Of a stretch of DNA of 64,000 bases, positions 13,999-63,514 are shown in pieces. A model generated the notes under the pieces. That model worked only from the letters and a program-made list of their open reading frames with translations. It was not told where the DNA came from and ran no database searches. How positions within the stretch are numbered: the first letter of the stretch is position 1; each line of letters opens with the position of its first letter. The DNA lies in NCBI GenBank assembly GCA_026874595.1, contig CM049317.1, positions 20,419,882 through 20,483,881 of the forward strand. Direction: 5' to 3'. This DNA comes from Sipunculus nudus. Its lineage: Eukaryota; Annelida; Sipuncula; Golfingiida; Sipunculidae. Made by a program: the position numbers and the translations under genes.

Positions 13999-16055
13999 TT
14001 AATATCTGCTCCAGAGGTCATAGCAGATTTTCCACTCGTTCGACTTGGTGTTCTTTTTCCAAACAAGAAATGCTCTGGAAAATGTGAAAGCATAAATATT
14101 CATGGCTCAAACGGGTATGCTTTTATCAAATAAATCCTTTATATATTAAAATAAGTTCATAAAGCATTTTAAAATAAAACAAAATCTTTGTATGAATTCG
14201 TTTGGATCTTTAAACATGATTAAAAGCGCAGACGGAATTATCATGCAGCGACATAGAAGCAATTATGTACACGATATTTTAATTAAATTGCATCCAGTGA
14301 GCTCAATAACTTACTTTCCTAGAGTGAAAATTTTGTGTTTAGGCGACTCCCTTGTATAATGAGCGACTTCGAATGCCATATGGCCAAGCACTTCGACAGT
14401 CTCTGTCTGAACATACATTCCTTTCATCTCTTCAATTTTTTCAGCTATATATCTATTTACTTTATCTGGGAAAAACAGCCTCTTGATATTATATGGACCT
14501 TTCACCTGGCAAGTTTCTTGATACCAAATGCATGCTACATTTTCTGTTATATAGATATAATTTAAAAAAATATGCTTGTATATACCTGGTAACTCATTTT
14601 TTTCTGGGTATCTATACATTTTAAATGCCTTCTTTGACTCAACTTAGGACAGCTTAACAGTTTTTAATATTATGTGATCTACTGACAATTACTTCATGCT
14701 AAGTTAGCTGATTATAAAAGGATTTTTCGATATGTTTAAGTTGAAAATACGAGGATGAGTAAACGGATTGAAGAGTTTAAAAAAAATCGTAAAAGATTGT
14801 TTTCTGGAACAAAAAGACCTTTTCCTTGTATAGTAAGTTCCCCTGGTGGATAAAGAGAACTTTCTTTCATGTAAATATCCTTTACTTCCTCTACATTGCG
14901 GTCATGAAATGCTTTGAAAAACATTGTCGTTTTCAAGGTTATCTGCGTTTTGTCATCAGCTGCAGAGAAAATAAATATAATTTAACAAATAACTGGTTCA
15001 TCTTCATTACATTTGGTACAAGTTAAGGCATGTTAAAGCAAATGTTATTATCGGGAATAGTATCTCTGAGAGGAGTTGTATTATAAGTCAATAATTCGAC
15101 ACGCTTTTCTATTTTTCTGACTCCTACTAAGTGTTAATGATTTGGTCTAACATGAATTTTAAAATAGGAACACAAGATGTGTATTGCAGAGAGAGTAGGA
15201 ATCCAAGGCTAATAATATGTCTCACAAAAGACTGTTTTATTAGTTTCTACCATTACGTTGTTAAGTACCATGCATCCCATACGCTTTTTTTACTCGGTCA
15301 ACATATTTTGTATAATTAATTCCATGATATTTTACCGCCACCTAAGCTTCTATTTCTAACGCAGCAATTTTTGGGGGAAAAAATCCTTCCTCATGTATTT
15401 AGAAAAACATCATCATAAATAATGCATTTGAAATCACAGAGACACGCGACATTATTTTAACAATTATTTTAAAAGAGCTTTTCCCATATTCGAGTTACCT
15501 GATGCTTTCATGTATGTGAATATATTGAAATTTCAACAAGGGGCAGTGTATCATTTTTCAAGTGCATGCCTTAAGCTAAGTTATTAGCACAATCCTAACC
15601 CCAAAGCACACTACGATCAGGTTTATCTGCCCAAGTCATATATGATGGGGCATGAACAGCCCGCCAGAAAAGGTCAGAAGAAATTTTGAAGAAGTACAAT
15701 CTGTTTAATGCCGATGGTCTACTGCATAGAGATAACCAATCAGTAAACAAGCCTTATATAATCATATGTCTCTCAGTGCATCCATTGATGTACCTAGATT
15801 GGCAAAACAAACTCGGTAATTTTGATCAGGTATTATAATTGTCGTAATGTAATTTTAGAAAAAAATACTTTAGCTTTATAAAATTACACGATAACCATTT
15901 TTATCAATGCACCTCTAACCATGATTAAACAAAAGTTGTATATCCAGCCCTTAAATGTGACGTCTACCTGCTTGTTCAGCACTTGCACATATCCCTGGTT
16001 TAGTACAAGTCGTCATCAAAAGGAATACAAATATCGCCGCAACGGAAGGGTTCAT
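13999..16055 (-). CDS. Secreted SnoaL-like/DUF4440 (NTF2-like) protein, type I, intact, four exons
   Basis: Exons read on the minus strand: 16055-15968 (88 nt), 14959-14819 (141), 14465-14315 (151), 14074-13999 (76, ending TAA). Intron phases are 1, 1 and 2; all acceptors end in AG and donors begin GT. The joined frame gives 151 residues without a stop. Residues 1-26 are a signal peptide (start MNPSVAAIFVFLLMTTC, likely cleavage after ASA). Exon 2 (31-76) has the helix and Y59...LYPPG (65-69)...GK (75-76) typical of the family. Exon 3 has VEVLG (100-104) and AFEVAHY (107-113). Exon 4 has FLVWKK and W141-K-I...D-L-W148. This fits a single NTF2-like domain of normal size. No enzyme activity can be assigned. 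The exon 1 donor could be G|GTAGAC or C|GTCACA, 6 nt later; both keep frame. Exon structure is read by eye, without transcript support. Confidence 0.78.
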
Positions 16056-19459: not shown

Positions 19460-20984
19460 TTAGTATCTACTCCAGATAGTGTAGCGTATTTTCCAGTAAT
19501 TCATTTCAAGATTTTTTTCCCAAATAAGCAGACCTTTGAAAAACAATACAAAAAAAGGAATGTACATATATATAATATACATATATAATGTAAATATATA
19601 TATATATACATATATATATAATTAAATATATGAACACACTTTGGTGCATTGATATTGAACTATTGTTTTTTTTACCACCTGACGTGTATCTTTTTCCTCT
19701 TTTCAAAATACCAGTACCAATCGTTTTTTATTTCTTTTGCGTGACAATATGATTTGAATCTTGGAAATCTATATTACTCAACTATATAACACTGCCCCTG
19801 CGATTTTAGTAAAGACGTTTTATTTGAGAAGAATTGCATAATGAAAAAATATATATTTTAACTTTTTTTCCAATTTTAAATTCCCCTACATATTTTCTAA
19901 ATAAAATTCTATAAAACTGAACCATATTATTGATTTATATTGTTTATAACATCTTCCGACCATACAGACCATGAAGATATACTCTTCTGAATCAATCATT
20001 AGTAATATCGGTTATCTATATTTCATTTTCGTTATAATTTCGAATGTATTTAAACGATTAATTGTTCGAAAACATACACTTGATGCATATCTCTTCTTGT
20101 TTACCTTCCAATGTGAGGCTTTCGACTTGTCCTTTGACTCTTCACCCTTGTATAAGCTATCTCAAATGCTACATCCTCAAAGACGTTGATACTCTCTGTC
20201 TGGTCAAACAATCGCATTATCCATTCCACCTTCCACGAAATGTGTGGAATCATGTTGTTGGCAAAGGAAAAGATATCAGCTTTAAAAATGTAAGATCGTG
20301 TACCGCTTCAAACATAATAAATGATCCAAACATAAAACAAATCATACTACTGCTTGAGGTATATGCTATATTGAAAACTTATAATCAGATGAAATATATT
20401 TTTAAAATTATTATTTTAGTGTCAGCCCTTTCCCTTGTATTATTATTTTCCCAGGAGGACAAAGGAAACTTTTCGTCAAATACAAGTCCTCCAGCTCTTC
20501 TGTATTACCGCTACGGAAAACCTTGTCGAATGCAGCTGTTTGCAGCATTATTTTCATTTTATCCTCCGCTATGGACAAAAAATAAAGTGTTCCTTATGTC
20601 CATTTGGGATATTGCTAAACAATCATTTGCACATGAAACAAACAATTAACTGAATAAAGGGTAACATTTCGAAAAATGCCTTATTCTTCTATATGTCAAT
20701 TAGATAATTCTGTGAACAGCAGAGTATAAAAAAGACTTTGTTCGATGAAGTAAAATAATTCATATAATAAACCGAATATATATAACAAAAGCTGCAAGGA
20801 TTGGTACGGTCTCCTATAAAATTATGAAAAAAAGTCACTAGAGTTCCTTATCTGCACACGCATACTCTGTGAATGCACCCGCTAAATCTCACCTTTTCTT
20901 CCTGTGTGTCCAAATACAGAAATACGTAGCAGAGGCCAGTTTACGGATAAACTGGTATCCTCTGGCAGTTCTACACATCAGCAT
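19460..20984 (-). pseudogene. Decayed SnoaL-like type II gene, disabled mainly at splice sites
   Basis: The four exon equivalents on the minus strand are 20984-20893, 20568-20428, about 20258-20105 and 19535-19460. Exon 2 keeps its exact 141 nt and an open frame (LEDLYLTKSFLCPPGK). Exon 3 is 154 nt and open, with EDVAFEI. Exon 4 is 76 nt and ends in WKIRYTIWSRY then TAA. Four defects are seen: exon 1 is 92 nt instead of 88, which shifts the frame in the signal peptide; the exon 2 donor is GG not GT; the exon 3 acceptor AG is lost; the exon 4 acceptor is AA not AG. Its best relative is the intact gene at 51,880-53,563. It could still be expressed with other sites, but four hits make a pseudogene more likely. 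Confidence 0.75.
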
Positions 20985-33390: not shown

Positions 33391-33465
33391 GTCTGCTTAT
33401 TTAAAATGTTCTAGGTAATATATTGTCAGGTGTGGGTTCACATTGTTGCTCAATGAAATGAAATA

Positions 33466-39916: not shown

Positions 39917-39989
<73 letters not shown>

Positions 39990-43132: not shown

Positions 43133-43220
43133 ATGAACCCTTCCGTTGCGGTGATAGTTGTATACCTTTTGATTACGACTTGTACTAAACCAGGGATATG
43201 TGCAAGGGCTGAACAAGCAG
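43133..43220 (+). pseudogene. Orphan type I exon 1 (signal peptide) at end of duplication unit 1
   Basis: Open 88-nt exon starting MNPSVAVIVVYLLITTC with cleavage region ICARA, matching exon 1 of the intact type I gene. The position of its donor reads AT instead of GT (GCAG|ATAGAC); C|GTCACA, 6 nt on, would keep frame. Downstream is duplication unit 2, whose gene is on the other strand. The next plus-strand exon 2 is 5.8 kb away behind a second exon 1, so this copy is cut off from its gene by the tandem duplication. Confidence 0.75.
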
Positions 43221-44523
43221 ATAGACGTCACATTTATGGCTGAATATACTACTTTTGTTTGATCATGCTTAGAGGTGCATCGTGACGAATTATAATATTT
43301 TATAAGTAAACGTCTCGAGCAAACACACCAAATTCTAGATAATCCCATATGTCAATACATTAAATAAAGACACTTTACACAGCGGAAATTGCAAAGCCAT
43401 TATTGTAAAGGAATACAAATTCATATAATCATATATTCAAATTTGCTACAAAAAAAGTTAAACAAGTTGCCCACGTAATGTAGCTCTTAATATCGGAAAA
43501 AAAATAGCTGAAATAAATGTTCATTTCAGTCATTTAAAGAAGTAGAAGCAAAGGTAAGCGTTTAGAATTAAAAAGGTTGATTTCATCTTCTCTAATTCTT
43601 AATACTGGAGGGGGTACGAATACCTCCACTCCCCGGCAGCTCATTTGCTAAAAAAAGAGATAATCAAATATGCTTTGCAGCACTTTACAGTAACCTTTAA
43701 CAAACTTTCACACGTAATTCAATTATTTCAAAGGAAAAAAAAATGAAAACAAGTTAACGATCGGGAAGCTGTTGACCCAAGCATCTGAACTGTGCTTCTT
43801 AATTGACCGAAACAAAAGTTGTAAAAACATTAACTAACGAATTGATATCAAACACCCGTATTTCATTTATTATTTCTCTCAAATTAAATATCAGATAATT
43901 AGACTTCGTCATGTACTTCAGCAAACGACATGCATGCTGACTCAACGTCATTTGTGGTTGTAAGTATAATTTGCAGGCGTTATTCGTATGACATGTCCAG
44001 TTAAAATTTTAAAAAAAAATGTTAGATTTAGATTTATATTGCTTTTTTCAATATTACAAACAATCAGCATTCCGTCAACCTCTTTATCTCCCTTTACTTG
44101 ATAAAGTACTCAAAATACCGGGCTATTAGACATCATTACATGCATCCTGAACATTGGTAACTCCAAATACCGTTTATTTAAAGAAAAACCTATAGATTGT
44201 ATTCCGGAGTAAACTTGGTGTTTTATATGAAAGATAATACAAGGTTCTCTTTCAATTTCCTGTTTCATACCCGAATGTACACTTATAGATACTAATACAG
44301 AATGTGCCAAACAATGGAATGCGTATCTAAATCTGTGAGCGATTTTTGGAAGAAACTAGGTGTCTAATATATCGGGAAACAAAAGGTACTCTCTCTGACG
44401 TTTTTTTATAAACGACTATACAATGAAGCTTACAAACACAAAATGTGCAAAACAATAAAATGAGTAACTAAACCCGGTTTGATGCAGAATCATAATTATT
44501 TACTTCATATACATTGTATATAT

Positions 44524-44775
44524 CTAACCGTCGAGAAGGTTTTCCCAGTTTGAATTCCAAATATTGTGGGTAAGTTTCCACTCCTTGCTATCCTCATCCT
44601 CCTTCCACACAACTAATGCTCTGAAAGTAATTATCACTCAATACAAATACAGTAACATTGAACTTGAAATTATGTAAAATGAATACCTGATAGTAAGTTT
44701 TCAATACGGTTCTAAAATTAGTAATTAACCCATGAGCTGTATTTACAGGTCTGAAACATTATTTACAGAATTATT

Positions 44776-44840
<65 letters not shown>

Positions 44841-46196
44841 CAATTATATAAATAATGTGTCGTCTATTATAATCAGAACATGCGTATATTCAACAATTAA
44901 ACATACTTCCTGAGATCCAACACCTTTTCTTTTCCTCCATCTTCTTCATAACGAAATACTTGGACGGCTATATCTCCATCAAGCTCTATCTTCTCACTTC
45001 GGCAATTTACTTTCTTTATTGTGTACATCAATGCAGTAAGCATCGCTATTATGTCTCCTAGTTTTGATAATACCATGGTCAAATAAAATAACACAAACAT
45101 ATAACGAAATGTTAAACATCACTTTAAATTAATGAAAATATATGGAAAAATTTATCTTGCAGTTTTGGACTACATCTTTAGCATATTAACATTAAATACG
45201 CTCCATCTATAAAAACTTTTTTCCTGAGTAGTTTTTTTGTAACCTAGGTCTTGAGTGGCTCTATGATTATATGATGTTGTGAATAATGAAATCAACGAGA
45301 TAACAACATTTTTATTTGATAACATAAATTTTCGGTACACTATTATGAAATTTAGAATCGGGACTGTTTATTAAGAACATATAGAAATCATGTTGCAATG
45401 AATCTGAATATAAACTTTCATATTTTGCCAAATTTTAAACTCACCCTTGCCTTTGTGTGTTTTATCTCCGGGAGGTAAAACGTATGCATGGGGACTGTAT
45501 ATCTTTTTGAAACGTGTCTCCGGATCGTGTCTTTCAAACTGGCCGTTTAGTTTGTTCATTTGCGATACAATCTGCGTAAAATCATTTCCTGCGAATAGAA
45601 GATGACTTTCCCTTTGTGATTGCTCCTGAGATCTATGTCAAGTATCTTTTATCTATTTCAATTTGGCAAACATAATTTTCAAATATTAATTTCACTCAAC
45701 CGCATCACAAAATTGTCTATATCAACGATTATACCCATGGTCAATTTAACATATTTCTCCAATTTTTATATGCACACATGCACTTGTACATTGAACCAAA
45801 TGTAAAAAAAATTAAAATTTGTAAGCTGTCATTTACTCATCATTGACTGTTTTCTCTTTAATGAGCAGTCTTCATGCCTGTATGTAAAATTTTAACAACT
45901 CCTGCTCAATGGCAAAACAATTTTCTAAAGAACAGAAACTTGTATATATATATTTATTTTGTATTAATATGATATAACAAGGGGATATGTTCATTCCAGA
46001 TTACCCTACTTTCATCAAACAGGCTCTAATAAGAAACGTACCTGCGAGGTAGCAGAAATATTTAAAAGGTTTATTGATAAAATCTATATATCATTAAAAA
46101 ATAACAAGTAGCACATTACTTACCGGCTCTGGCATATACTGACATACTGACACAGCAGCCTAAAAAGAGGGAAAGGTAAAACAAGGAATGGCGCAT
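44524..46196 (-). CDS. Secreted SnoaL-like/DUF4440 (NTF2-like) protein, type III, copy b, intact
   Basis: Exons on the minus strand: 46196-46124, 45588-45445, 45057-44907, 44620-44524. All splice sites match copy a, and I see no coding difference, so the predicted 154-residue protein is identical. Exons 1-3 lie exactly 4,851 bp from copy a; exon 4 lies 4,875 bp away because the intron 3 (TA)n tract is shorter. Flanking sequence has accumulated a handful of substitutions, including a premature stop in an unrelated open frame just downstream (about 44.11 kb). The coding identity therefore reflects a recent duplication, perhaps with selection. Whether both copies are expressed cannot be told. 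Confidence 0.82.
44776..44839. repeat. (TA)n microsatellite in intron 3 of type III copy b
   Basis: Counterpart of 39919-39988. Confidence 0.95.
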
Positions 46197-47819
46197 TTTT
46201 CACTAAAGCATGCGATACAAATCTTCACAAATACCTGCCTTCGACTAACCGATGTAATGTTGATGTACCAGTATCTATTTCATTAGCGGTAAACCCGATG
46301 CGGAATTTTAAATTGCCTGTTTTATATTTATAACGGAAATTCCATTTGGTATCGAGTAATTGTGATCCTCAAATCAATTATACAGACAATTATGGCAGGA
46401 CTAAAATAAGGCATGGCAAGGGTAATAGCATCACAGAAAGCATCACAAGACATTATTTAATATAAGTGTCAAAAGAGTCTCTTTATGAAAACACTCATTC
46501 CTTATTTCTAAAAATGAACGCGGACTACTGTTACTATGTAAGAGTATTAATGTACTGTTTTGAGAGATATTATTACACTCACCAGGGGAAACAATCTCAA
46601 ATTTTGTTTTGTAGCTTATCCATTATAATATTTGTATGTGAACCGTTTTTTTTTAAAATATATCATATCTAATATTGAATTGTATTTGGAACGTTTTCCG
46701 CTTGGAAGATTTGGTAAATAGCGTTGATGGCAATATTTACAAATAAATATCGAGAAAGGTAACCACATTATTAAAGCTTAAATTTCTGCAGTTTGTTCTT
46801 CTTTTAGTTTTATACGAATAAATGAAATTGGATGGTGCACGGTACAGTTTTATCTAACAATTATATTGTAACACATTTTGGATAACAATGTCCCCTAAAC
46901 GCAATCCCTGATATCAAGAAGTGAAATATGAAAAATATTGATATCCTAATCCTTCGTTGAAATTAAACCTCTTTGCATCATTAATTATTCTCAGCATGTT
47001 TTAATCCTGAAAATTAAAGAAACTAAAGCTGTATGTGTAAAACATAGTTCTGAACTAATGTATGGTTGCGATATCCATTAATTATCCGTATGGCCTTTAC
47101 GAAATTAAACTCACAATAGTTAATTTATGGTTCAGAACGTTTTGACTCATATGCAAAAGGCAGAGTGTTGCATCTAACATAATTACTCAAAAACAGATGT
47201 TCAACCATTGTAATCTAGAAACCCACCTGAACCGTCGGTCACATACGTTTAAAACAAATAATCGTGGTATTTGACCTGCTTATGTAAATTGATTACCGCT
47301 GTATGCTCCAGTCTGTCTTGTTATTCTGCTAATTAGTAAATTTCGTATAGTTAAATTACACGGAGGAGACAATCATACGACAAAATTAGTCCAAACTAAA
47401 CAAATTATATTATTTACTAGTTGAGGACTGCAAAATTTAATGTTTCAAAACATATTTCAAAACACAGTATTTCCAATGTTTGCACACCCTGGACCTCCTG
47501 TTCATTAATACATACAATACATTTGTCAAAATTTTCGATAAAGTCGGTCGATCTTACCATATTCAAGATAACATTAAAGCGTGCGTTTTGTGGGAATGCA
47601 TTGCGCTTTTCCAAACATTATATGTAATGTTTTTAAACAGAAGACAGATAGATAAGATAAGAAAGTAAGGGCTTGATGCCTTTTATAACGATATATCATG
47701 AAATACAGCCAACAGGATAAACATAACCCTATTTTATTTACAATAATGACAAAATCTGTTGAGCAGCGTATGGCAGGAATTTCCTGCACTGTATGAAATT
47801 GCAAGGTTTCTTTTCAGAC

Positions 47820-49985
47820 ATGAACCCTTCCGTTGCGGTGATAGTTGTATTCCTTTTGATGACGACTTGTACTAAACCAGGGATATGTGCAAGGGCTGAA
47901 CAAGCAGATAGACGTCACATTTATGGCTGAATATACTACTTTTGTTTGATCATGCTTAGAGGTGCATCGTGTTATTTTATAAACCTAAGTTATTATTTCT
48001 TAAATTATATTACGACCTGATTGTGGACAAAATTACTGAGGTTGTCTTGCAAATCCAGGTTTATCAATGGATGCACAGAGAGACATATGATTATATTAGG
48101 CTTATTTTGTGGTTGGTTATATCTGTGCTGGAGGCCTTCGGCATTAAACCTACTTGTGCTTCTTCAAGATTCCTGTTGACCTTTTTCCTCTATGGCGGGT
48201 TCTCCATGATCCATCATATATGACTCTGGAAGATAAACCTGATCGTAGAGTGCTTCGGTGTTAGGATTGTGTTGATAACGCGGTGACAGGCATCTACTTG
48301 GAAATTGTAACACTCTTCCTCATTGTTTGTAATTTCAATATATACTCACAAACATGAAGGCATCAGGTAACTCGAATATGGGAAAAGCGCCTTAAATAAT
48401 GCTTTATTGGGCTTACATCAGGTTTATATGCACAGTAACGTACAACTTAGCAGTAATGCTGATATCTTTTTGATAATGATAGCAAACAAGGACATAAGCC
48501 CTTGATATCCATGTGTCTCATCAGTGATTTCAGATTCATTATTGATAATTGTATTTGATTGGGGAAGGTTTTATTTTTTTTCAAAAATGGCAGGGTTAGA
48601 AATATAAACATATTATAAGTGGATCGCGGTAAAATATCAGGGAGTTAGTTATACAAAATGATGTTTACTTAGTAAATAAAATTACATAGAGAATGCATGG
48701 TACTATATAATGTAGGGTAGATGAATCTAATAGAACAGTCTTTTGTGAGACAAATTACAAGCTTTGTATTCCTAAGCTCTTATAATACGCCTCTTGTTTT
48801 CCTATTTTTAAATTCGTATTCGACCAAATCTTTAACACTTAGGTGGAGTCAGAAAATATAGAAAAGCGTGTCAATTTATTTACTTATGATACAACACCTC
48901 TCAGAGATATGATTCCACAATAATAACATTTGCTCTAACATGCCTATACTTGTGCACAATGTAATCAAGAGGAACCGGTATTATGTTACAATCCATTTAT
49001 TTTCTCTGCAGCCGATAACAAAACGCAGCTAACCTTAAAAACGAGCATGTTTTCTAAGCATTCCAAGACCGCAAGGTAGAAGAAGTAATGGATATTTACC
49101 TGAAAGAAAGTTCTCTATATCCACCAGGGGAACTTGCTATACAAGGTCTTTATTTTCCAGAAAACAATCTTTACCGATTTTCTAAACTCTTCAATCAGCT
49201 TACGCCCCCATATTTTCAACTTGATCATATAAAAAAATCACTCCATAATTAGCTCACCTAGCATGAATTAAACTTGTTTCTTTGGAATGATTTGTCAGCA
49301 GAATACATATTGTTAAATATTGTTAATCTGTCCAAAGTTGAGTCACATAAACATATAGAGTTCCTGAAAAAAAATTCAGTTTCCAGGTAAACACGAGCAT
49401 ATTTTTAAATTGGATCGTGTATGTGTGTGTCCATTGATCTATTGATAATTTATTTTATTTATGTGAAGTAACTGGTCCATAAAATGTTAAAACGCCATTT
49501 TTCCCAGATAGAAATAACAAGATTTATTGCCAAAAAGATCGAAGATATGAAAAGCATCTTTGTTCAGACAGAGACGGTCGAAGTGCTTGGACATTTGGCT
49601 TTCGAAGTCGCTCATTATTCAAGGGTGGGCCAAACACATAATTTACAGTCTAGGAAAGTAAGTTATTGAGCTCACTGGATGCCCTTTGATTAAATTATTG
49701 TGTACATAATTGCTACCGCCGAGTTATTATGTCGCTTCATGATAAATCCGTCTGAGCTTACAATTATGCTTAGAATAAAGATCCAAACGAATTCATAAAA
49801 AGAACAATATTTTATTTTAAAATGCGGTATGAATTGATTTCATATATAAAGGATCAATTTGATAAAATAATCCCTGTTTGAGTCATGTATATTTATACAC
49901 TCATATTTTTTCAATAGCATTTCTTTTTTGCAAATAAAGAACACTAAGTCGACCGAGTGGAAAATCTGCTATGACCTTTGAAGAA
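47820..49985 (+). pseudogene. Broken type I SnoaL-like gene, left arm
   Basis: Exon 1 (47820-47907) is open (MNPSVAVIVVFLLMTTC) but has AT at the usual donor. Exon 2 (49012-49145) is 134 nt instead of 141: one base is missing after ATGTTTTC, giving a TAG soon after, and the GGAAAA at its 3' end is lost; out of frame it still reads VEEVMDIYLKESSLYPPGE. Exon 3 (49508-49657) has a one-base insertion at its start and then reads QTETVEVLGHLAFEVAHY. The exon 4 relic (about 49918-49985) has lost its acceptor and carries an early TAA. At least four independent lesions make function unlikely. Confidence 0.85.
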
Positions 49986-50228
49986 GATATAAATGCCTGA
50001 TGACAAAATGATAAATTAAACTTGTTGAACGAACTCAAATGCGTTCTCATTTGATGTAGCAACAAATGCTGCATATCGTGTGTAGTAGCAAATCTTATTC
50101 ATTAAGAAGGCTGCCCAAAGACACCAACACATCAAAAGAGGAACAGAAGTGTACCCTGACAAATCAAAAGAAGATTATCATTTTGTCATACTTTGCTTGT
50201 ATACATAGGCTACATAGTTTTTCGATAT

Positions 50229-50260
<32 letters not shown>
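50229..50260. repeat. (TA)n microsatellite
   Basis: Counterpart of the much longer tract at 60.99-61.11 kb in the right arm. Confidence 0.9.
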
Positions 50261-50263
<3 letters not shown>

Positions 50264-50276
50264 TTACAGCTGTAAA

Positions 50277-50600
50277 TCCCACAGTGTCACCATTACACAT
50301 CTTTCATCTCCAGAAAGAGATATTCTAGCTGTACAACCAAAAAATTATGTATATGTATAGATATCTAAAAATATAGTGGCCTGGTTTACCTATGGAACCA
50401 TTGTGCAATATTGTATAGCTAACACCGGGCAGCTTAAAGGTTTGCTTACTAATGGTGAGAACAGTCCTTTCAGGCTCGATGAGGAAACAGCTATTTTTGG
50501 CCTTTTCTGACAACTCCCGGCTGCATAAAGGAATGCTGTCATATCAAATCAAGAAAAATTACCAGACGAATGTAAATTGCTACTAGGTCGTGTATTCAGA
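50277..50600 (+). pseudogene. Relic of an unidentified open frame (left arm)
   Basis: Reads WFTYGTIVQYCIANTGQLK, then LLTNGENSPFRLDEETAIFG, then shifts frame and stops. The right-arm copy (60,685-60,870, minus) is open for 61 codons. After AAGAAAAATTA the left arm runs straight on into CCAGACGAATGTAAATTGC, whereas the right arm has about 200 bp between these points, so the left arm has a deletion between short matching TTA sites. I do not recognise the protein. Confidence 0.45.
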
Positions 50601-50809
50601 GTTTATGGTACCGGTGTGTCGTTTTCATCTTACGCTTAGTCTAGGTGAGGCAGGCCATGAGTATAAAACATGTTATATCGTCCCCGTAGTGGACACATGG
50701 CTTTACACGTTGTTACACGTTGAGCCTGAATCTAAAACCTGTTGTTCAGACAAAATCAATCGTAGATGTTTATCTCTAGGTCACTATGTCGCCTTTAAGA
50801 TACACTCTA

Positions 50810-50812
<3 letters not shown>

Positions 50813-50868
<56 letters not shown>
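50813..50868. repeat. (TA)n microsatellite
   Basis: Counterpart of 60051-60100 (inverted) and 13075-13138. Confidence 0.95.
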
Positions 50869-50873
<5 letters not shown>

Positions 50874-51329
50874 ATGTTTGTGTTTGTTCTTTTATCCCTT
50901 TTTACTACAGTCTCCTTCCAAACAAAACTGTCCTCCACAACTTTTTTTATCACTTGATTTCCCTATCTTTTTCCAAAACAGCAGACGCCATAGTCAGGTC
51001 TGTGTTTCTTCTATTTATAGAATCCTTATCACCCTAACGTAATGCATGGACTTATTCTAACCAAATCAATGACTTAAATACTTAATAATATAGTATCAAG
51101 GCATTTTATATTCCTATGGTTTATTACCTTAACATTTCTTAATCCTTTATTTTCTATACTGGAGAACTATGAAACGCATTTTAAAAAAAAATATATTCCT
51201 AACATATTTTGCCAAGAAAACTTGGATATCAAATTAATGTCCGATTTCATTTAGCCCATAGATAAATATGTTATAATGCCGGAGAATTTGTATGTCTTAG
51301 AATGTTCGTGTATATTGTACATTTCAGTT

Positions 51330-51660
51330 CCATCCTCATAGATTAGAACCGGTATGTGTTCCCAAAACTAGCAATAATATCACAGGTCTTAGAAGTCTCT
51401 GAAAAAATAAGGATAACATTATGCTTGGCATGTATATGAAGCATTAAGAGGGAATGTTTTATATTCAAAATTGTGGTTTATACTGAAATAAAATTTACAA
51501 ACAATGTTAAGAATTAATGGAACATTCATCATGGCTCAGACGTTCGGATGTCTGTAGGGGCGGAGGAAATCGGACCTTGGAATTACACTATGCTACCGAA
51601 CCTAACTGCCAAGCTAAGAATCAAACCATGGTCACTAGCGGAGAGAACCAAACCTGTTTG
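51330..51660 (-). repeat. Dispersed module repeat A, copy 3
   Basis: Inverted relative to the other copies, as expected in the left arm. It sits about 220 bp upstream of the intact type II gene and so may overlap its promoter region. Confidence 0.7.
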
Positions 51661-51879
51661 GTTCACTGTTAATGATTGCAACATACACTATTCAAGCAGC
51701 ACTGCACATATATTGATTTTTTCTATTTCCCCAGTTGAAATGCAATTAAATTACTCACTAACAGGAGATAACCTTATGTCATACGCCATGAAGATGACGT
51801 AATTAAATATGTCTATAAACAATGATTTCCATATGAACACGACACTGGGAAGAATTGACGATTGCTTCTACTTCCAAAT

Positions 51880-53400
51880 ATGCAGATGTGTAGAACTGCA
51901 AAAGGATACCAGCTTGTCCATGGCCTCTGCTACGTAATTCTGATTTTGGGTACATGGGCCAAAAAGGGTGAGATTTAACAGGTGCAATCACAGAGTTTGT
52001 GAGTAGGAACTCTAGTGACTATTGTTTAATATTTTAAGAGAGACAGTACCAAGCCTTAAACATTTTGTTTAAAGTCATATATATTCGGTTTATTATATGA
52101 ATTACAATCTTCATTGACAATGTTCTAATTAAAGTTACTACCCTGTTGTTCACAGATTTATCTAACAGATAGAGATAAAGAAAGCAAATGTCGAAATTGT
52201 AGCCTGTATTTAGTAAATGGTTTGGTTTATGTGCAAATGATTGTCTAGCGATATCCCAAACTGACATTACGGACACTTTATTTTTGCTATAGCGGAGGAT
52301 CAAGCAAAAATAACACTGCAAACAACTGCATTCTACAAGGCTTTCCAGAGCGGTAATAAAGAAGAGCTGGAGGATTTGTATTTGACGAAAAGTTTCCTTT
52401 GTCCTCCTGGGAAAACGATAATTCTTGGGAAAGGTCTGACACTAATAAAATTTGTTTAGAAATATATTTCATATCGTTATATGTTTTCAATAATACATAT
52501 ATGTTTTAAACAAATGTATTAAAGGGAGTTTTTCTTCGGATGATTGGATGGTTCTCCATCTTTGATCCTTCCCAGGTTTAGATTATGGTTTAGCATTGAA
52601 AAACTAAGCATGAAATAGATCTACATCAAGCAGTGCAATGATTTTTGTTATGTTCGGTTCATTTATTTTGTTTATTTTATACTCGTCCTTACATTTTTGT
52701 TAAGCCGATATCTTTTTCATTGCCAGATAACATTATTTCATGCCTTTCTGGGTACATGGCAAGGATAAAAGGTTTGTTTGTCCAAACAGAGAGTATCGAC
52801 GTTCTTGAGGATGTGGCATTTGAGATTGTTCATTACGTGGATGAAGGGCCCAACCACAACGTACTTCACATTGAAAGGTAAGCCAGAAGAAAATGCATCT
52901 AGTGTATGTTTTCGAACGATTGTTTGTGTAAATGCATTCAAAATTATTGTGAAAAGTGAAATGTAGATAACCGATATTACTAATGTTTAGTTCAGAAGAG
53001 TATATCTACATGGTCTGCAGGGTCGGAAAATGTTATAAACAATATAACTCAATGATATGGCTGAGCTTGATAGACCCGCATTTATATAATGAGTAAGAAA
53101 AAAATAAAATAGAAAATAGAAGAGATTTCAGCATAAAGGAGGCATTCCTGTGCAAGTCTTGTCAAATAAATCATTTTCAATTAAATTGCAGCTGAAGAGT
53201 TTTATAGTTCAGTGATATAGATTGCCAAGATCCAACTCATATTTTCGTACGAAAAAGTATAAGACGGCTGGTAACTATGAACTGAGTGTGAATGAAATAT
53301 GAAAAGGAAACATTCCAAAAAAGATCATATTAAACGTTAAGATACAGGTCAGAATATACTGGTTAAATATCCAATAGTTAGAATATCTCAGACGCATAAA

Positions 53401-53453
<53 letters not shown>

Positions 53454-53563
53454 TTATTGTACATTACATTTTCGTATTGTTTTCCAGAGGCCTCCTCATT
53501 TGGGAAAAGGATCTTGAGTTGAAAAAATGGAAAATACGCTACCATATTTGGAGTAGATACTAA
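51880..53563 (+). CDS. Secreted SnoaL-like/DUF4440 (NTF2-like) protein, type II, intact, four exons
   Basis: Exons: 51880-51967 (88 nt), 52293-52433 (141), 52727-52877 (151), 53488-53563 (76, ending TAA). Donors are G|GTGAGA, G|GTCTGA and AG|GTAAGC; acceptors are CTATAG, TGCCAG and TTCCAG. Phases 1, 1 and 2 and exon lengths match type I exactly. The product has 151 residues. Residues 1-29 hold a signal peptide with core GLCYVILILGTWA. Exon 2 reads TTAFYKAFQSGNKEELEDLY then FLCPPG and LGK. Exon 3 reads QTESIDVLEDVAFEIVHY. Exon 4 reads GLLIWEKD...WKIRYHIWSRY. The start is the first ATG of the exon; a second in-frame ATG is the third codon. The weak donor of exon 2 (GTCTGA) is shared by the right-arm copy, and type I has a similar one (GTCTTT). 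Likely extracellular; function unknown. Confidence 0.8.
53415..53445. repeat. (TA)n microsatellite with (GT)n edges
   Basis: Lies in intron 3 of the type II gene, about 40 bp before the exon 4 acceptor region; the right-arm counterpart (57860-57931) is over twice as long. Confidence 0.9.
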
Positions 53564-53647
53564 TAATATGGTCTGGATAAATAATGCTGAAGTGATCAAT
53601 ACAATTTAAAAAATATGATAAGGAAATTCAAAATGAATTGTGTTCTG

Positions 53648-53653
53648 AATAAA
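53648..53653 (+). terminator. Candidate polyadenylation signal AATAAA
   Basis: First AATAAA hexamer after the stop codon of the type II gene, 84 bp downstream. In AT-rich DNA such hexamers are common, so this is only a candidate. Confidence 0.35.
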
Positions 53654-54762
53654 AAATGCTTCTTTCTGGACAGTCTGAACTGTTGGCCTAGTAACACCAT
53701 TACAATAGATAAAGACCGATGGATTGATACATCAATTTGTAAGTTAGTTATAAACAACAAAACAAAGATATAAGAAGTACGCTTACAGCAAACACTACAT
53801 TATCTCTTTCTCGCTTTTCTCTGCAAATAGATATATGCCGAACATAATATATTTTTACGAATTCACTGCAATCATTTTTGTATCATGCATTGAGTATTAA
53901 AGGCTCCTTTAAAATACAACTTAAACGATTTTGTTGACCTCTGTATTCATTCTTGAATTAATTATTGCATCATGTTTCATATGAATTTTACAAACATTTT
54001 GAGATCAACTATGTATCGAGAAAGAAAAAATTCAAACTGCCAAGCGTCAAACCGGCACGCTTAAAATTAAGAATAAGCGATAATTTATTTGGTGTACACA
54101 TTCCACGAGGTTGATAAGCTTATTTGGATTTTTTTTATCAACACATTTTTCAAATATGACGTGTTTGAAGTTATTTTAGTTCGTAAATGTTTTTGTCCTT
54201 TTTTAAATCTAGATACACACGTTGTTAGGTTGTAGTTTTATACAGGAGTGTACCAAGAAGCAAAAATATAACATTTTTTAACTGTTCAGGTAAAATGTTA
54301 CCTCTCCTAGAACTAGCATTATTAGGTTCGTAACGCTAAATCATTTAGGCTATATGTCAAGTTATAGGAGTGAGTTTATACTTTGGTGTCATGTCATCTC
54401 ACCTGAATAATCATGTTGCCTTTCTGGACTTTGGGACCTGTTCATTTATATATATTTTTTCTTCCCCTCGGGTAACACATACCCCATTCAATGGGTACTA
54501 GAATGTTATTCATTCATAACTTGCTTCTCCCCGAGAACAGTGGACATACACTCTTTTGCTTAAGGTTTTGGCAAGTATCAGTATGTAGTGTGTCTTGAAT
54601 CGGGTTTGTCATAAAAACATTGACAATCAACAAAATAAAAGCCATACATTAAAACCCACTGTGTGTATATTTTAAAATATGATAAAAAAATTATGAAAAT
54701 AATATAATGTAATATCTCATATCTTATTCTAACGTGTGTGAAGATAACAAAATGGTTTGTTA

Positions 54763-56483
54763 CAAATCTTATTTCTAACTTTTTTAACTCTTAAAATAAG
54801 GCTTTAATGTAATTTTTAATTCTGCCATCTTTCGTATTGTCTCTTTTATCACAAAGAAACTTTTAAACAATGCTTTACCGTATTTAGCCTTTTTTATATT
54901 TAAAGTAAAACCCACATACAATGACTATTTTTTTAGCTGCTATGCGTATTATCTGTTTCTACCCCACCTAAACATTTTAGAGTAACCGGGGGTTTGAGCA
55001 AAATTAATCCTATTGTCCTTTTTGCCCACGATAACATTGATTTTAAATAATTTATCTATCCAAAAAGAAATTATGTTAAGCGTTACTATTATTTAAATCA
55101 AAAATTTTAATTTTAATAATTTATAACAGAGCATTATAACAGGCTTTTCCCATACAGGCATGGTAAATGACGAAACGTTCAATAACCCGGAATCCTTTGT
55201 TTTGTTCCGCGCAGCTTAACTTAGTCGAAAAATTGTGTAAGTGTTGTTGAACACCAATCTCGATTTTTGGGATTCGCATAGCAAACCCGTGGTAGAGCTT
55301 ATCGGTCCAGGCAAGACATTAATTACCATTCGCCTTGTCCCCCCTCCCGAAAGAAACCGATCATGTTTGCCCATAATACATATCTAAAGCGCAAAAAATA
55401 AACACTGGTAAGAAACATTATTAAAAGAATAAGGAAATAACACAAAAACTTGTCCCACATGTCAGTTAAATGACATTTTGAAAACCAAATTTGTCACGGA
55501 AAGATATTAATGAATGTAAAAAAAGGGGAATGGGTAAGTTGTTCCTGTTTTAACCTAACCGAAAGCGGTGTCATGGGCACATAAACGTGAATGATAGCAG
55601 ATCTGAGATGACATGTTGTTTTATCGAGATTTATGTAACTAAATTGACTAAAGGCCAGCATCATAATAATAACATAACAAATTGATATAGAATACACGAT
55701 GAATCATGAAATTACCAATTGTAGATCACACAAAATGCTAATAAATTTTAAACTGTTTCGGCTGTTGCATGTTCGTTTAGCGTACAGCTTAATTATGATT
55801 ATAAAGAGCCGGTAACTGTTATTTGGTAACTGTAACAGCTGTTTAACAGCAGTTACCCCGCTTTGGATAGCTCACCAGACTCAGACCTGGACTCACCCTA
55901 TTCATTTATCAAAACACATTTAAATTTTTAATATAACAGAAGAAAATAACATGTTGAGTCATAAGTTTTCTGTTTTTATTATGTCGTTTTCATGAAGCAC
56001 TTGGAAGTCTTAGGTTTCATCTAATTATTATGTTGTTTTCAGGAAGTATGATCTAATACAAAAATTAAGACATCATTTATAACAGAGAAACCAGTCCCCT
56101 CTGCATGTACTGTATGGTGTTGGCGCCTCATAAGATCGTTAGTCTAGTTATACAATTAAAATATGAGATAATTTGTTAACAACATGTGTTGCATAAGTGA
56201 TGAGACGGATACGAATATTTGTTTTAAAGAATCATCGGCTAGGCTACCATTATAATGTAACAATGTCTTAGAGGGATCTGTGTCAGCAACACAGTATCGA
56301 TTTCTGGGAGAAACACCCATGAAGAGCTAAAGAGCAGTATGTTTCTGCTTTCGTACCACTGTCAGTCTGTACATAAGTGTAATTTTGTGATCGTAAGAGT
56401 GATCATTACAGAAATGTCTTGTTGAATTGCCAACCCAAGCCGAGTGTGGTCAAGCTTCAAACCCCGTGCGTCTACTACACACT
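54763..56483. other. Spacer of the inverted duplication, no gene seen
   Basis: About 1.7 kb of sequence with no match in the arms that I can see. It contains a small hairpin near 55.82-55.86 kb (GGTAACTG...CAGTTACC). No exon or RNA gene is recognised. Confidence 0.6.
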
Positions 56484-57750
56484 GAAATAAACCATTTTGT
56501 GATCTTCACACAGGTTAGAATAAGATATAAGATATTACATTATATTATTTTCATAATTTTTTTTATCATATTTTATAATATACACACAGTGGGTTTTAAT
56601 GTATGGCTTTTATTTTGTTGATTGTCTATGTTTTATGCTGACTGTTCAATACAAACTTAAAAGACCAGTTGCTGCTGTATAAGCGTTTTCTATATGAAAG
56701 GCCTGATGACAAACCCGATTCAAGACACACTACATACCGATACTTGCCAAAACCTTAAGCAAAAGAGTGTATGGCCCCTGTTCTCGAGGTAAAGCAAGTG
56801 AAGAATGAATAACATTCTAGTACCCATTGAATGGGGTATGTGTTACCCGAGGGGGATAAAAAATATATATCAATGAACAGGTCCCAAAGTCCAGAAAGGC
56901 AACATGATTATTCAGGTGAGATGACATGACACCAAAGTATAAACTCACTCCTGTAACTTGACATATAGCCTAAATGATTTAGCGTTACGAACCTAATAAT
57001 GCTAGTACTAGGAGAGGTAACATTTTACCTGAACAATTAAAAAATGTCATATGTTTGCTTCTTGGTACACTCCTGTACAAAACTACAACCTAACAACGTG
57101 TGTATCTAGATTTAAAAAAGGACAAAAATCATTTACCAACTAAAATAACTTCAAACACGTCATATTTAAAAAAAAATTGTTGATAAAAAAATCAAATTAG
57201 CTTTTCAACTTTGTAAAATGTGTACACCAATTAATTATCGCTTATTCTTAATTTTTATGCGTGCCGGTTTGTCGCTTGGCAATTTAAATTTTGTTCTCGA
57301 TACATAACTGATGTCTCAAAATGTTTGTAAATATCATATGAAACATGATGCAATAATTAATTCAAGAAAGAATACAGAGGTCAACGAAATCATTTAAGTT
57401 GTATTTTAAAGGAGCCTCTATTACTCTATGCATGATACAAAAAAGAATGCCATGAATTCGTAAAATTATATTATGTTCGGCATATATCTATTTGCAGAGA
57501 AAAGCGAGAAAGAGATAATGTAGTGTTTGCTGTAAGCCTTCTTATATTTTCGTTTTGTTGTTTATAACTAACTTACAAATTGATGTATCAATCCATCGGT
57601 CTTTATCTATTGTTATGGTGATACTAGGCCAACAGTTCAGACTGTCCAGAAAGAAGCATTTTTTATTCAGAACACCATTCATTTTGAATTTCCTTATCAT
57701 ATTTTTATATTGTATTGATCACTCCAGCATTATTTATCCAGACCATATTA

Positions 57751-57855
57751 TTAGTATCTACTCCAAATATGATAGCGTATTTTCCACTTTTTTTCAACTC
57801 AAGATCCTTTTCCCAAATAAGGAGGCCTCTGGAAAACAATTCGAAAATGTAATGT

Positions 57856-57931
<76 letters not shown>

Positions 57932-59017
57932 CATTTATGCGTCTGAGATATTTGAACTATTGGATATTTAACCAGTATATCCTGACCAGTATCTTAACGT
58001 TTAATATGATCTTTTTTTGAATGCTTCCCTTTTCATATTTCATTCAAACTCAGATCATAGTTACCAGCCGTCTTATACTTTTTGTACGAAAATATGAGCT
58101 GGATCTTGGCAATCTATATCACTCAACTATAAAACTCTTCAGCTGCAATTTAATTGTAGACGTTGACATGAGTTGCACAGGAATGTCTTCTCTATGCAAA
58201 AAACTCTTCTATTGTGTTTATTTTATTTTTTTCTTACTCATTATCTAAATGCAGGTCTATCAAGCTCAGCCATATCATTGATTTATATTATTTATAACAT
58301 TTTTCGACCGTGCAGACCATGTAGATATATTCTTCTGAACCAAACATTAGTAATATCGGTTATCTACATTTCAATTTTTTCAATAATTTTGAATGCATTT
58401 ACACAATCAATCGTTCGAAAACATACACTAGTTCTGGCTTACCTTCCAATGTGAAGCACGTTGTGGTTGGGCCCTTCATCCTCGTAATGAACAATCTACA
58501 ATGTCACATCCTCAAGAACGTCGATACTCTCTGTTTGGACAAGAAAAACTGCCATGTACCCAGAAAGGCATGAAATAATGTTATCTGGCAAAGAAAAAGA
58601 TATCGGCTTAACAAAAATGTAAGGACGAGTATAGAATAATCAAACTAAATGAACCAAACACAACAAAAATCATTGTACTGCTTGGTGTAGATGTATTTCA
58701 TGCTTAGTTTTTCAATCCTAAACCATAATCTAAACCTAGGAAGCATCGAAGATGTAGAACCATTCAATCATCCGAAAAAAACTCCTTTTAATACAGTTGT
58801 ATAAAACATATATGTTTTATTGAAAACATATAACGAGATGAAATATATTTTTAAACACAATATTTTAGTGTCAAACCTTTCCCAAGAATTATCGTTTTCC
58901 CAGGAGGACAAAGGAAACTTTTCATCAAATACAAGTCCTCCAGCTCTTCTTTATTACCGCCGTGGAAAGCCTTGTAGAATGCAGTTGTTTGCAGCGTTAT
59001 TTTCGCTTGATCCTCCG
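57751..59017 (-). pseudogene. Broken type II SnoaL-like gene, right arm
   Basis: Exon 2 (59017-58877) is open, 141 nt, with FLCPPG and a GT donor. Exon 3 (58584-58443) has a 9-nt in-frame deletion after GYMA and a premature TAG where the left arm has the Glu of AFEI. Exon 4 (57828-57751) carries two extra bases in the A-run after GAGTTG, so the final W-K...W ending is lost. Exon 1 is missing, removed by a ~440-bp deletion. The mirror-image gene in the left arm is intact. Confidence 0.85.
57860..57931. repeat. (TA)n microsatellite
   Basis: Right-arm counterpart of 53415-53445. Confidence 0.95.
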
Positions 59018-59219
59018 CTACAGCAAAAATAAAGTGTTCGTAATGTCAGTTTGGGATATTGCTAGACAATCATTTGCACATAAACCAAACCATTTACTAA
59101 ATACAGGCTACAAGTTCGACATTTGCTTTCTTTATATCTATGTCTGTTAAATAAATCTGTGAACAACAGGGGGAAAAGAAATAATAAATATATGTACAGT
59201 GCAGCTTGAATAGTATATG

Positions 59220-59720
59220 TTGCAATCATTAAAAGTCAACCCAACAAGTTTGGTTCTCTCCGCTAGTGACCCTGGTTTGATTCTTAGCTTGGCAGTAAGG
59301 TTCGGTAGCATGGTGTAATTCCAAGGTGGTGTTTTACTGTCAGGCTTCCGATTTTCTCCGCCCCTACAGACATCCGAACGTCTGAGCCATGATGAATGTT
59401 CCATTAATTCTTAACATTGTTTATAAATTTTATTTCAGTATAAACCACAATTTTGAATATAAAACATTCCCTCATAATGCTTCATGTACATGCCAAGCAC
59501 TCCATTAATGTTATCCTTATTTTTTTCAGAGGCTTCTAACACCTGTGATATTATTGCTAGTTTTAGGAACACATACCGGTTCTAATCTATAAGGATGGAA
59601 CTGAAATGTACTTAATTCTAAAACATACAAATTCTCCGACATTATGAAATATTTATCCATGGGCTAAATGAAATCGGACATTAATTTGATATCCAAGTTT
59701 TCTTGGCAAATTATTTGTTA
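59220..59720 (+). repeat. Dispersed module repeat A, copy 4
   Basis: Mirror of the 51.3-51.7 kb copy; similar to 12.2 kb and 21.3 kb, with TTTTCTCCGCCCCTACAGAC. Confidence 0.75.
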
Positions 59721-60045
59721 GGAATATATTTTTATTGAAAATGCTTTTCATTGTTCTCCACTGTGGAAAATAAAGGTTTAAGAAATGTTAAGGTAATAAA
59801 CCATAGGAATGTAAAATGCCTTGATACGATATTATTAAGTGTTTAAGTCATTGATTTGGTTAAAATAAGTTCATGCATTACGTTAGGGTGATAGAAATTC
59901 TATAAATATAACAAACACAGACCTGACTATGGCGCCTGCTGTTTTGGAAAAAGATAGGAAAATCAAGTGTTAAAAAAGTTGTGGAGGACAGTTTTGTTTA
60001 GAAGGAGACTGTAGTAAAAAGGGATAAAAGAATAAACACAAACAT

Positions 60046-60050
<5 letters not shown>

Positions 60051-60100
<50 letters not shown>
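60051..60100. repeat. (TA)n microsatellite
   Basis: Right-arm counterpart of 50813-50868, followed by the same CCTATGGCGTTGTCC sequence. Confidence 0.95.
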
Positions 60101-60102
<2 letters not shown>

Positions 60103-60684
60103 CCTATGGCGTTGTCCTACAGAGTGAGGGAAACGTTCATCCACGAGTGTATCTTAAAGGCGACATAGTGAACTTCAGATAAACATCTACGATTGATTTT
60201 GTCTGAACAATAGGTTTTAGATTTTGGCTCATTTCGAATCCCCTTAACATTAAACAAGAACCCTCATTTAAATTATAAATGTTACGTGTCTGTTCATGCC
60301 CATTTGGTCACATACATTTAACAACGTGTAAAGCTAAGTGTCCACTACGGGGACGATATAACATGTTTTATACTCATGGCCTGCCTCACCTAGACTAAGC
60401 GTAAGATGCAAACGACACCGGTACCATAAGCTCTCAATACACGACCTAGTAGCAATTTACGTTCGTCTGGTAAGCCCGCCTGAGTTCTGACACTTGTCAT
60501 ACGGAAAATGATGAAATTACAGATTTGAATGCAAGTAAACCAAACTGTAAATCGATCGATATACAGGTTATTTTCGCGTCACTTACAATTTAGTTATCGC
60601 CATGTACACATGCTGTCACAAATCCCATTAATGTACAACAGGATTTTCTACATGGTATGTGTTGTTAGAAAGTAGACATACCTA

Positions 60685-60870
60685 TTAATTTTTCTTGATC
60701 TGATATGACAGCATTCCCTTATGCAGCCGGGCGTTGTCAGAAAAGGCAAAAATAGCTGATTCCTCATCGAGCCCGAAAGGACTGTTCTCACCATTAGTAA
60801 GCAAACCTTTAAGCTGCCCGGTGTTAGCTATACAATATTTCACAATGGTTCCATAGGTAAAGCAGGCCAC
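60685..60870 (-). CDS. Unidentified 61-codon open frame (right arm)
   Basis: Begins MACFTYGTIVKYCIANTGQ, continues LLTNGENSPFGLDEESAIFA and ends LSYQIKKN then TAA. The codon use and the mirror copy at 50.3-50.6 kb, whose differences include many at third positions before it breaks, suggest it was once coding. No acceptor, domain or signal peptide is clear. It could be a single exon of a larger gene or a transposon piece. Confidence 0.3.
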   Translation of the reverse strand: MACFTYGTIVKYCIANTGQLKGLLTNGENSPFGLDEESAIFAFSDNARLHKGMLSYQIKKN

Positions 60871-60987
60871 TAATTTTTTAGATATCTATACATGTACATA
60901 ATTTTTTTGGTTGTAAAGCTAGAATATCTCTTTCTGGAGATGAAAGATGTGTAATGGTGACACTGTTGGATTTACAGCTGTAAGCCC

Positions 60988-61108
<121 letters not shown>

Positions 61109-61332
61109 CGAAAAACTATGTAGCCTATGTATACAAGCAAAGTATGACAAAATGATAATCTTGTTTTGATTTGTCAGGCTACACTTCTGTCCCTCTTTGG
61201 ATGTGTTGGTGTCTATGGGCAGCCTTCTCAATGAATAAAAGTTGCAACTACATACGATATGCAGCATTTGTTGTTACATCAAATGAGAACGCATTTGAGT
61301 TCGTTCAACAAATTGAATTTATCATTTTGTCA

Positions 61333-63514
61333 TGAGGCATTTATATCTTCTTCAAGGGTAGTAGCAGATTTTCCACTCGTTCGACTTAGTGTTCTTTATT
61401 TGCATAAAAGAAATATGAGTGTATAAATATACATGACTCAAACAGGGATGCTTTTATCAAATTGATCCTTTATATATTGAAATAAATTCATACCACATTT
61501 TGAAATAAAATATTGTTCTTTTTATAAATTCGTTTGGATCTTTAAAGCATAATTTAAAGCACAGACGGAATTATCATGAAGCGACATAATAACTCGGCGG
61601 TAGCAATTATATACACAATAATTTAATCAAAGGCATCCAGTGAGCTCAATAACTTACTTTCCTAGACTGAAAATTATGTGTTTGGCCCACCCTTGAATAA
61701 TGAGCGACTTCAAAAGCCATATGTCTAAGCACTTCGACCGTCTCTGTCTGAACAAAGATGCTTTTCATCTCTTCGATCTTTTTTGCAATAAATTTGGTTA
61801 CTTTATCTTGAAAAAATGGCGTTTTAACATTATATTGACCTGTTACTTGACATAAATAAAATAAATTATCAATAGATCAATGGACACACACATTCACGAT
61901 CCAATTTAATAATAGGCTCGTGTTTACCAGGAAACTAATTTTTTTTCAAGAACTCTATATATTTTAAATGCCTTCTTTGGCTCAACTAAGGACAAATTAA
62001 CAATATTAAATAATATGTATTCTGCTGACAAATCATTCCAAAGAAACACGTTTAATTCATGCTAAGTGAGCTAATTATGGAGTGATTTTTTTATATGTTT
62101 AGGTTGAAAATATGGGGGCGTAAACTGATTGAAGAGTTTAGAAAAATCGGTAGAGCTTGTTTTCTGGAAAATAACGACATTGTATAGCAAGTTCCCCTGG
62201 TGGATATAGAGAACTTTCTTTCAGATAAATATCCATTACTTCTTCTACCTTGCGGTCTTGGAATGCTTAGAAAACATGTTCGTTTTCAAGGTTAGCTGCG
62301 TTTTTTCATCAGCTGCAGAGAAAATAAATGGAATGTAACATATTACTGGTTCCTCTTCATTACATTGTGCACAAGTATAGGCATGTTAGAGCAAATGTTA
62401 TAATTGTGGAATCGAATCTTTCAGAGGAGTTGTATCATAAGTCAATAAATTGACACGCTTTTCTATATTTTCTGACTCCTCCTAAGTGTTAAAGATTTGG
62501 TCAAATACGAATTTAAAAATAGGAATACAAGAGGCGTATTGTAAGGACTTAGGAATCCAATGCTTGTAATTTGTCTCACAAAAGACTGTTCTATTAGATT
62601 TTTCTACCCTTACATTTTATAGTACAATGCATCCTCTATGTAATTTTATTTGCTATGTAAACATCTTTTGTATAACTAACTCCCTGATATTTTACCGCGA
62701 TCCACTTATAATATGTTTATATTTATAACCCTGCCATTTTTGACAAAAAAAATTCCTTCCCAATGTACTTAGAAAAAAATATAATCATCAATAATAAATA
62801 TGAAATCACAGATGAGACACATGAATATCAAGGGCTTATGTCATTGTTTGTTATCCGTATGCAGGAGGATATCAGCATTACTGCTAACTTGTACGTTACT
62901 GTGCATAAAAACCTTATGTAAGCACAATAAAGCATTATTTAAGGCGCTTTTCTCATATTCGAGTTACCTGATGCCTTCATGTTTGTGAGTATATATTGAA
63001 ATTTACAAACCATGAGGAAGAGTGTTACAATTTCCAAGTAGATGCCTGTCACCGCGTTATCAACACAATCCTAACATCGAAGCACTCTACGATCAGGCTT
63101 ATCTTCCAGAGTCATATACGATTGGTCATGGAGAACCCGCCCTAGAGGAAAAAGGTCAACAGGAATCTTAAAGAAGCACAAGTAAATTTAAGGCCGGAGC
63201 CCTTCTGCACAGAGATAACCAACCAGAAAGTAAGCCTACTATAATCATATGTCTCTCTGTGCATCCATTGATAAACCTGGATTTGCAAGACAACCTCAGT
63301 AATGTTGTCCACATTCAGGTCGTAATGTAATTTAAGAAATAATACATGGGTTTCTAAAATAACACGATGCACCTCTAAGCATGATCAAACAAAAATAGTA
63401 TATTCAGCCATAAATGTGACGTCTATCTGCTTGTTCAGCCCTTGCACATATTCCTAGTTTAGTACAAGTCGTCACCAAAAGGAATACAACTATCACCGCC
63501 ACGGAAGGGTTCAT
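61333..63514 (-). pseudogene. Broken type I SnoaL-like gene, right arm
   Basis: Exon 1 (63514-63427) is open (MNPSVAVIVVFLLVTTC) with AT at the usual donor. Exon 2 (62312-62179) is 134 nt and shares with the left arm the same missing base and the same lost 3' bases. Exon 3 (61806-61658) begins in the correct frame (DKVTKFIAKKIEEM...EVLRHMAFEVAHY) but is 149 nt and shifts frame near its end. The exon 4 relic (about 61333-61410) has no acceptor and an early stop. The shared exon 2 lesions show the gene was already dead before the arms separated. Confidence 0.85.

Follow-up and report, generated by a model that had tools for sequence, protein, structure and literature searches.

NTF2-like domains are versatile pocket proteins that are known mainly from bacteria, and SnoaL_2 and SnoaL_3 belong to the same superfamily as DUF4440, a Pfam family that is named as being of unknown function. 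The nearest solved relative of the proteins described here is PDB 3hx8, a chain of 129 residues that carries the name of a putative ketosteroid isomerase. According to the respective reports, NTF2-like domains tend towards small-molecule binding in a common pocket (PMC3924330), a DUF4440 protein is among the most abundant proteins in heat-treated Anisakis larvae (PMC7407331), and DUF4440 proteins are found in extracellular vesicles of Parascaris (PMC11468347). Judged by their descriptions, these nematode proteins are, like the ones described below, animal representatives of DUF4440. They indicate that the initial annotation of the DNA studied here took too narrow a view in calling such domains usually intracellular or bacterial. 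A literature search, with most subscription journals outside its scope, recognised no such mollusc family among the matches listed.

The analysed DNA, referred to as the window, is a stretch of 64,000 nucleotides from Sipunculus nudus (C12:20419882-20483881 in an assembly of 1.43 Gb). The proteins encoded by this locus resemble the Pfam DUF4440 family in their domain scores. They differ from it in that the domain is preceded by a signal-peptide-like exon, is encoded in four-exon genes and belongs to a megabase array.

Identity of the encoded domain

Seven types of the family were scanned against Pfam, and six of them scored above the DUF4440 (PF14534) gathering cut-off of 25.2 bits (A 30.2, C 30.6, B 27.5, D72 37.7, E125 29.6 and G166 28.5 bits). 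The seventh type, F144, is located outside the window and fell under the cut-off with 17.5 bits. The matches cover nearly the whole domain of 107 positions (8-107 in A, 6-107 in C and 5-107 in B), and the SnoaL-like/DUF4440 identity first proposed from the letters of the sequence holds for the spliced products of A, B and C, all three of which exceed the cut-off. A profile built from the seven paralogues matched 3hx8 near its full length (E 1.6e-11, positions 24-142 of 143), with the motifs Y...PP and VW.K...WKL...IWN in common. Weaker profile matches followed to chains named CDL2.x, a designed cortisol-binding protein and de novo NTF2 proteins. The identity of the domain as NTF2-like/DUF4440 is near certain; the assignment to the superfamily is based on sequence homology, and an NTF2 fold with a pocket is predicted.

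Matches to the related families SnoaL_2 and SnoaL_3 were obtained for some of the types, all of them below cut-off. SnoaL_2 (PF12680, cut-off 27 bits) reached 18.5 bits for A, 20.9 for C and, as the best value, 25.4 for D72, and it was not listed for B, E125, F144 and G166 at the E limits used; the best SnoaL_3 (PF13474) score was 16 bits against a cut-off of 22. A search of NCBIfam returned one match far under the cut-off for A and none for B and C, and the Rfam gathering scan of the whole window gave zero matches. A genome search with PF12680 yielded two matches, none of them in the array, which is expected because the exons match one by one. These two matches, at C114:3005-3328 and C128:83659-83970, lie within reading frames that are open over 143 and 131 amino acids (L001 and L002) and perhaps represent bacterial contamination.

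The alignment of the seven paralogues contains nine invariant columns (I, Y, P, two K, A and three W). No invariant Asp, Glu or His was found among them, an observation that leans towards a binder over an acid-base enzyme, even though so small an alignment is weak evidence on catalysis. The catalytic Asp of ketosteroid isomerase would presumably align with the PPG motif, at its first Pro. The proteins could instead be secreted enzymes of the SnoaL/ketosteroid-isomerase type (isomerase, cyclase or hydratase) that act on an extracellular small-molecule substrate, a reading suggested by the name of 3hx8 and by SnoaL_2 as the sub-threshold second match for A, C and D72. However, the name of 3hx8 is a label given by its depositor, and with the acidic and histidine residues varying as described, an enzyme is considered unlikely.

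Intact genes and the exon plan

Exon-level nhmmer searches located ten loci of the family in the window, three of which are complete and intact, namely gene A (A14), C40 and C45. Their exon lengths are 88/141/151/76 nt or 73/144/151/97 nt, with phases 1, 1 and 2 and GT-AG borders at every intron. Another locus, B52, consists of intact exons 2-4 for which exon 1 was not found, and the six others are decayed or single exons. The initial annotation had described ten loci with the same exons; the ten loci exist, but the lengths and phases apply to three of them, with six decayed and one without a detected first exon. Exon counts thus overstate the number of working genes, since only three of ten loci in the window are whole. 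The end coordinates given in the initial annotation are exact, with 13999 being the end of the gene A stop codon and 63514 the ATG of a decayed copy (A63). Three diverged types had been reported to lie side by side; the window contains at least four types (A, B, C and D) and three remnants of a fifth.

Gene A is encoded on the minus strand (16055-13999) and comprises a signal-peptide-like exon 1 of 88 nt (15968..16055), exon 2 of 141 nt (14819..14959), exon 3 of 151 nt (14315..14465) and exon 4 of 76 nt with the stop codon (13999..14074). All three introns have GT-AG borders and the product has 151 residues. An alternative exon 3 of 184 nt, using an acceptor at 14498, was tried and rejected; the mis-spliced protein has 11 residues extra and one missing, and its DUF4440 score is 18.5 bits against 30.2 bits with the 151-nt exon. 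This gain serves as an internal control on the acceptor and supports the exon 3 of 151 nt that had been predicted.

The two intact genes of type C are likewise found on the minus strand. C40 (41345-39649) has a signal-peptide-like exon 1 of 73 nt (41273..41345), followed by exons of 144 nt (40594..40737), 151 nt (40056..40206) and 97 nt with the stop codon (39649..39745). The corresponding exons of C45 (46196-44524) are positioned at 46124..46196 (73 nt), 45445..45588 (144 nt), 44907..45057 (151 nt) and 44524..44620 (97 nt with stop). Both products have 154 residues and are identical, with 0 differences at 465 coding positions and 5 at 1208 intron sites (24 gap positions). The genes are part of a tandem duplication (38499..47564) whose copies, 38499-42719 and 43372-47564, are 98.6% identical and spaced approximately 4.9 kb apart.

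The partial gene B52 is encoded on the plus strand and has good splice sites around exon 2 (52293..52433, 141 nt), exon 3 (52727..52877, 151 nt) and exon 4 (53488..53563, 76 nt with stop). The upstream ATG-to-donor stretches that were scanned held no convincing candidate for its exon 1. A repeated peptide near 18.4k and 22.1k was dropped because inspection by eye showed no right-phase donor.

Exon HMMs gave 29 matches in the window at E<1e-3 (12, 9 and 8 for exons 2, 3 and 4). The reversed window and three shuffled versions of it (single bases within 100-nt blocks) gave zero matches at this threshold, with best E values of 0.0097 and 0.012, a chance control that is in-sample because the HMMs were iterated on the same region. 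Independent support comes from genes outside the window, in which the exon 2 length of 141/144 nt and the exon 3 length of 151 nt recur. Exon lengths were further analysed in a joined region of 344 kb, which consists of the window plus its neighbours. Here, nine of 20 exon-3 matches can be read as an open AG..GT chain with a length of precisely 151 nt, although several of these allow other lengths too and the remaining 11 have no chain of 151 nt; five of the nine are of types other than A, B and C, which had served as seeds. For exon 2, a length of 141 or 144 nt is possible in 10 of 25 matches.

Outside the window, complete four-exon models were obtained for D72 (79/141/151/106 nt), whose exon 1 depends on a weak donor (GTAATG), and for F144 (73/144/151/70 nt). 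E125 and G166 are represented by exons 2-4 and their exon 1 was not found, C66 carries stops in exons 2 and 3, and partial matches were also seen near 79k, 88k, 94k, 110k and 154k. An A-like locus (L033, C12:20128100-20130500) was first taken as intact and then rejected, as inspection by eye showed that its exon 1 has 87 instead of 88 nt and is out of phase with exon 2. Plasmid sequences that were searched by tblastn with D72 as the query contained no match at E 0.01.

Decayed copies and local repeats

Two decayed copies of gene A, A48 (47820..49991, plus strand) and A63 (61343..63514, minus strand), share two lesions, a change of the exon-1 donor from GT to AT and a frameshift in exon 2, and both have a damaged exon 4. 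The lesions in common indicate that an already dead copy was duplicated. An exon 1 remnant (A43, 43133..43220, plus strand) has lost its donor in the same way and is truncated at the boundary of the tandemly duplicated C segment. Among the other decayed loci, B20 (19460..20568, minus strand) retains exons 2-4, with the exon-2 donor and the acceptors of exons 3 and 4 absent at the expected places. B59 (57751..59017, minus strand) also spans exons 2-4; its exon 3 is interrupted by a stop and carries a deletion, and its exon 4 has an insertion of 2 nt. D37 (37215..37355, plus strand) is an exon 2 only, and its donor is lost. Remnants of a fifth-type exon 2 were identified antisense within intron 1 of gene A (15588..15674, plus strand), between exons 1 and 2 of A48 (48188..48271, minus strand) and between exons 1 and 2 of A63 (63064..63144, plus strand).

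A48 and B52 are contained in the left arm (47562..54764, plus strand) of an inverted repeat and A63 in its right arm (56483..63772, minus strand). The arms measure approximately 7 kb each and their aligned pieces are 90-95% identical. The inverted repeat may extend beyond the end of the window, because a decayed plus-strand C copy is found at 65.5-67.1k in window coordinates.

The window also contains long-period tandem repeats at 3000-5665, 6174-7805, 9396-11714 and 23390-24533, with units of 339 nt, 315 nt (two arrays) and 148 nt. Two open frames on the minus strand were matched to other domains. The frame at 35379-35807 encodes a C3HC4 RING finger (PF00097, 22.8 bits against a cut-off of 21), and the one at 32806-33396 ends in a DDE endonuclease helix-turn-helix (PF13613, 26.6 bits against a cut-off of 27) and is probably a transposon remnant.

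A megabase array with recent and old copies

Searches of the same genome that used A and C as queries revealed at least 77 exon-2 places genome-wide at E<=1e-3, a lower bound because these searches score the best candidates only. The great majority (69 places) fall within 1.03 Mb of C12 (19.55-20.59 Mb) and eight are found elsewhere on C12, C9 and C10; the window, itself part of a larger array, contains nine of the 77. Among the best-scored candidates, 146 exon-level matches were obtained for query A (E up to 10) and 144 for query C (E up to 1). For the count of 77, exon-2 rows with E up to about 0.005 were chosen by hand and then filtered at E<=1e-3. Overhang rows judged to be exon 3 or exon 1 were left out, and the count likewise excludes an exon-3 match to C15 and the weaker matches that other contigs gave. 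The first 13.9 kb of the window and the adjoining 30 kb on its left side yielded no family match, and the array resumes further left, beyond this match-free 30 kb.

Two further open copies of gene A were found at 20.034 and 20.245 Mb. Compared with gene A, the copy at 20.034 Mb has 9 differences at 1695 non-coding sites (99 gap positions) and 4 at 456 coding sites, all of them amino-acid changes, a pattern that gives no sign of constraint. The copy at 20.245 Mb differs at 9 of 1693 non-coding sites (65 gap positions) and at 0 of 456 coding sites. Non-coding sites comprise introns and short flanks, and their divergence amounts to approximately 0.5%. Offsets of approximately 211 and 189 kb repeat among the neighbouring matches and point to large segmental duplication, although unmerged haplotypes could be behind part of them. 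Part of the copy number might even be an assembly artefact in which unmerged haplotypes were placed in tandem, as the divergence between the A copies is within reach of allelic variation. Three such copies on one contig are nevertheless more than two haplotypes can supply and many exon matches are far too diverged to be alleles, which leaves this explanation rather improbable.

The initial annotation had spoken of an expanding family and of long-standing diversification. The former is borne out by the number of exon-2 places and the near-identical open A copies, and the latter by the 29% identity between A and C. The array represents a known domain with a notable expansion.

Sequence constraint and proposed function

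Pairwise dN/dS ratios (Nei-Gojobori, exons 2-4) were 0.31 for types F and G, 0.25 for F and E and 0.31 for G and E, with synonymous distances of 1.6-1.7 for F-E and G-E, so that two of these three low values were obtained near saturation. The ratio was 0.34 for C40 and the decayed C66 in exon 2 alone, and 0.52 for A and L033, a pair that may include a recent pseudogene given the out-of-phase exon 1 of the latter. The comparisons of A with B52 and of C with G, F and E were saturated and no ratio was obtained. Between some paralogues, dN/dS is below 1. These values bear on the possibility that the array is mostly a relic, copied passively in segmental duplications and with little current function. 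Six decayed loci out of ten in the window, together with one more that has no detected exon 1, and the duplication of a dead A copy are what such a relic would leave behind. It is a doubtful explanation all the same, for the ratios of 0.25-0.31 among F, G and E and the persistence of complete four-exon genes as distant as A and C argue against it.

In A, C, D72 and F144, exon 1 encodes a hydrophobic core that was recognised by eye, and the exon that had been called a signal peptide is indeed hydrophobic and signal-peptide-like in the complete genes. Secretion of the proteins is likely on the basis of these four first exons. A secreted protein in high copy number could also have a structural or matrix role in mucus, shell or cuticle, with the copies providing dosage instead of ligand variety. 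The recent near-identical A copies would fit dosage, and a DUF4440 protein is reported from a sponge skeletal proteome (PMC4633127). However, this sponge protein differs in architecture, as it has a transmembrane helix and an Ig domain in addition, and the seven paralogues have no invariant cysteine and, by eye, no repeats or acidic runs; a matrix role therefore appears improbable.

The reading that we prefer is that of secreted single-domain NTF2-like/DUF4440 pocket proteins that bind small ligands and form a panel shaped by duplication followed by divergence or decay, to which we assign about an even chance. Exon 1 would provide the signal peptide, and exons 2-4 would encode one NTF2-like/DUF4440 domain of approximately 120 residues, predicted to adopt the conical fold usual for NTF2, with helices and a curved sheet. 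Its pocket would accept a small, mostly apolar ligand outside the cell. Ligand binding itself, which is suggested by the superfamily, is roughly as probable as not. Differences between the types would turn the family into a panel of binders, built by tandem and segmental duplication, and the copies would afterwards either diverge under constraint or decay in a process of birth and death.

By analogy with odorant-binding proteins and lipocalins, the family could represent a so far unnamed group of animal proteins, NTF2-fold binders that act outside the cell, in which a megabase birth-and-death array maintains a panel for different ligands; this broader proposal is speculative and at present unlikely. 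If true, the role of such a panel would be in chemical communication or in the sequestering of xenobiotics or metabolites. A large animal array that encodes probably secreted proteins and combines recent with old copies would be a natural test of pocket diversification, and it would supply many natural variants for ligand screens.
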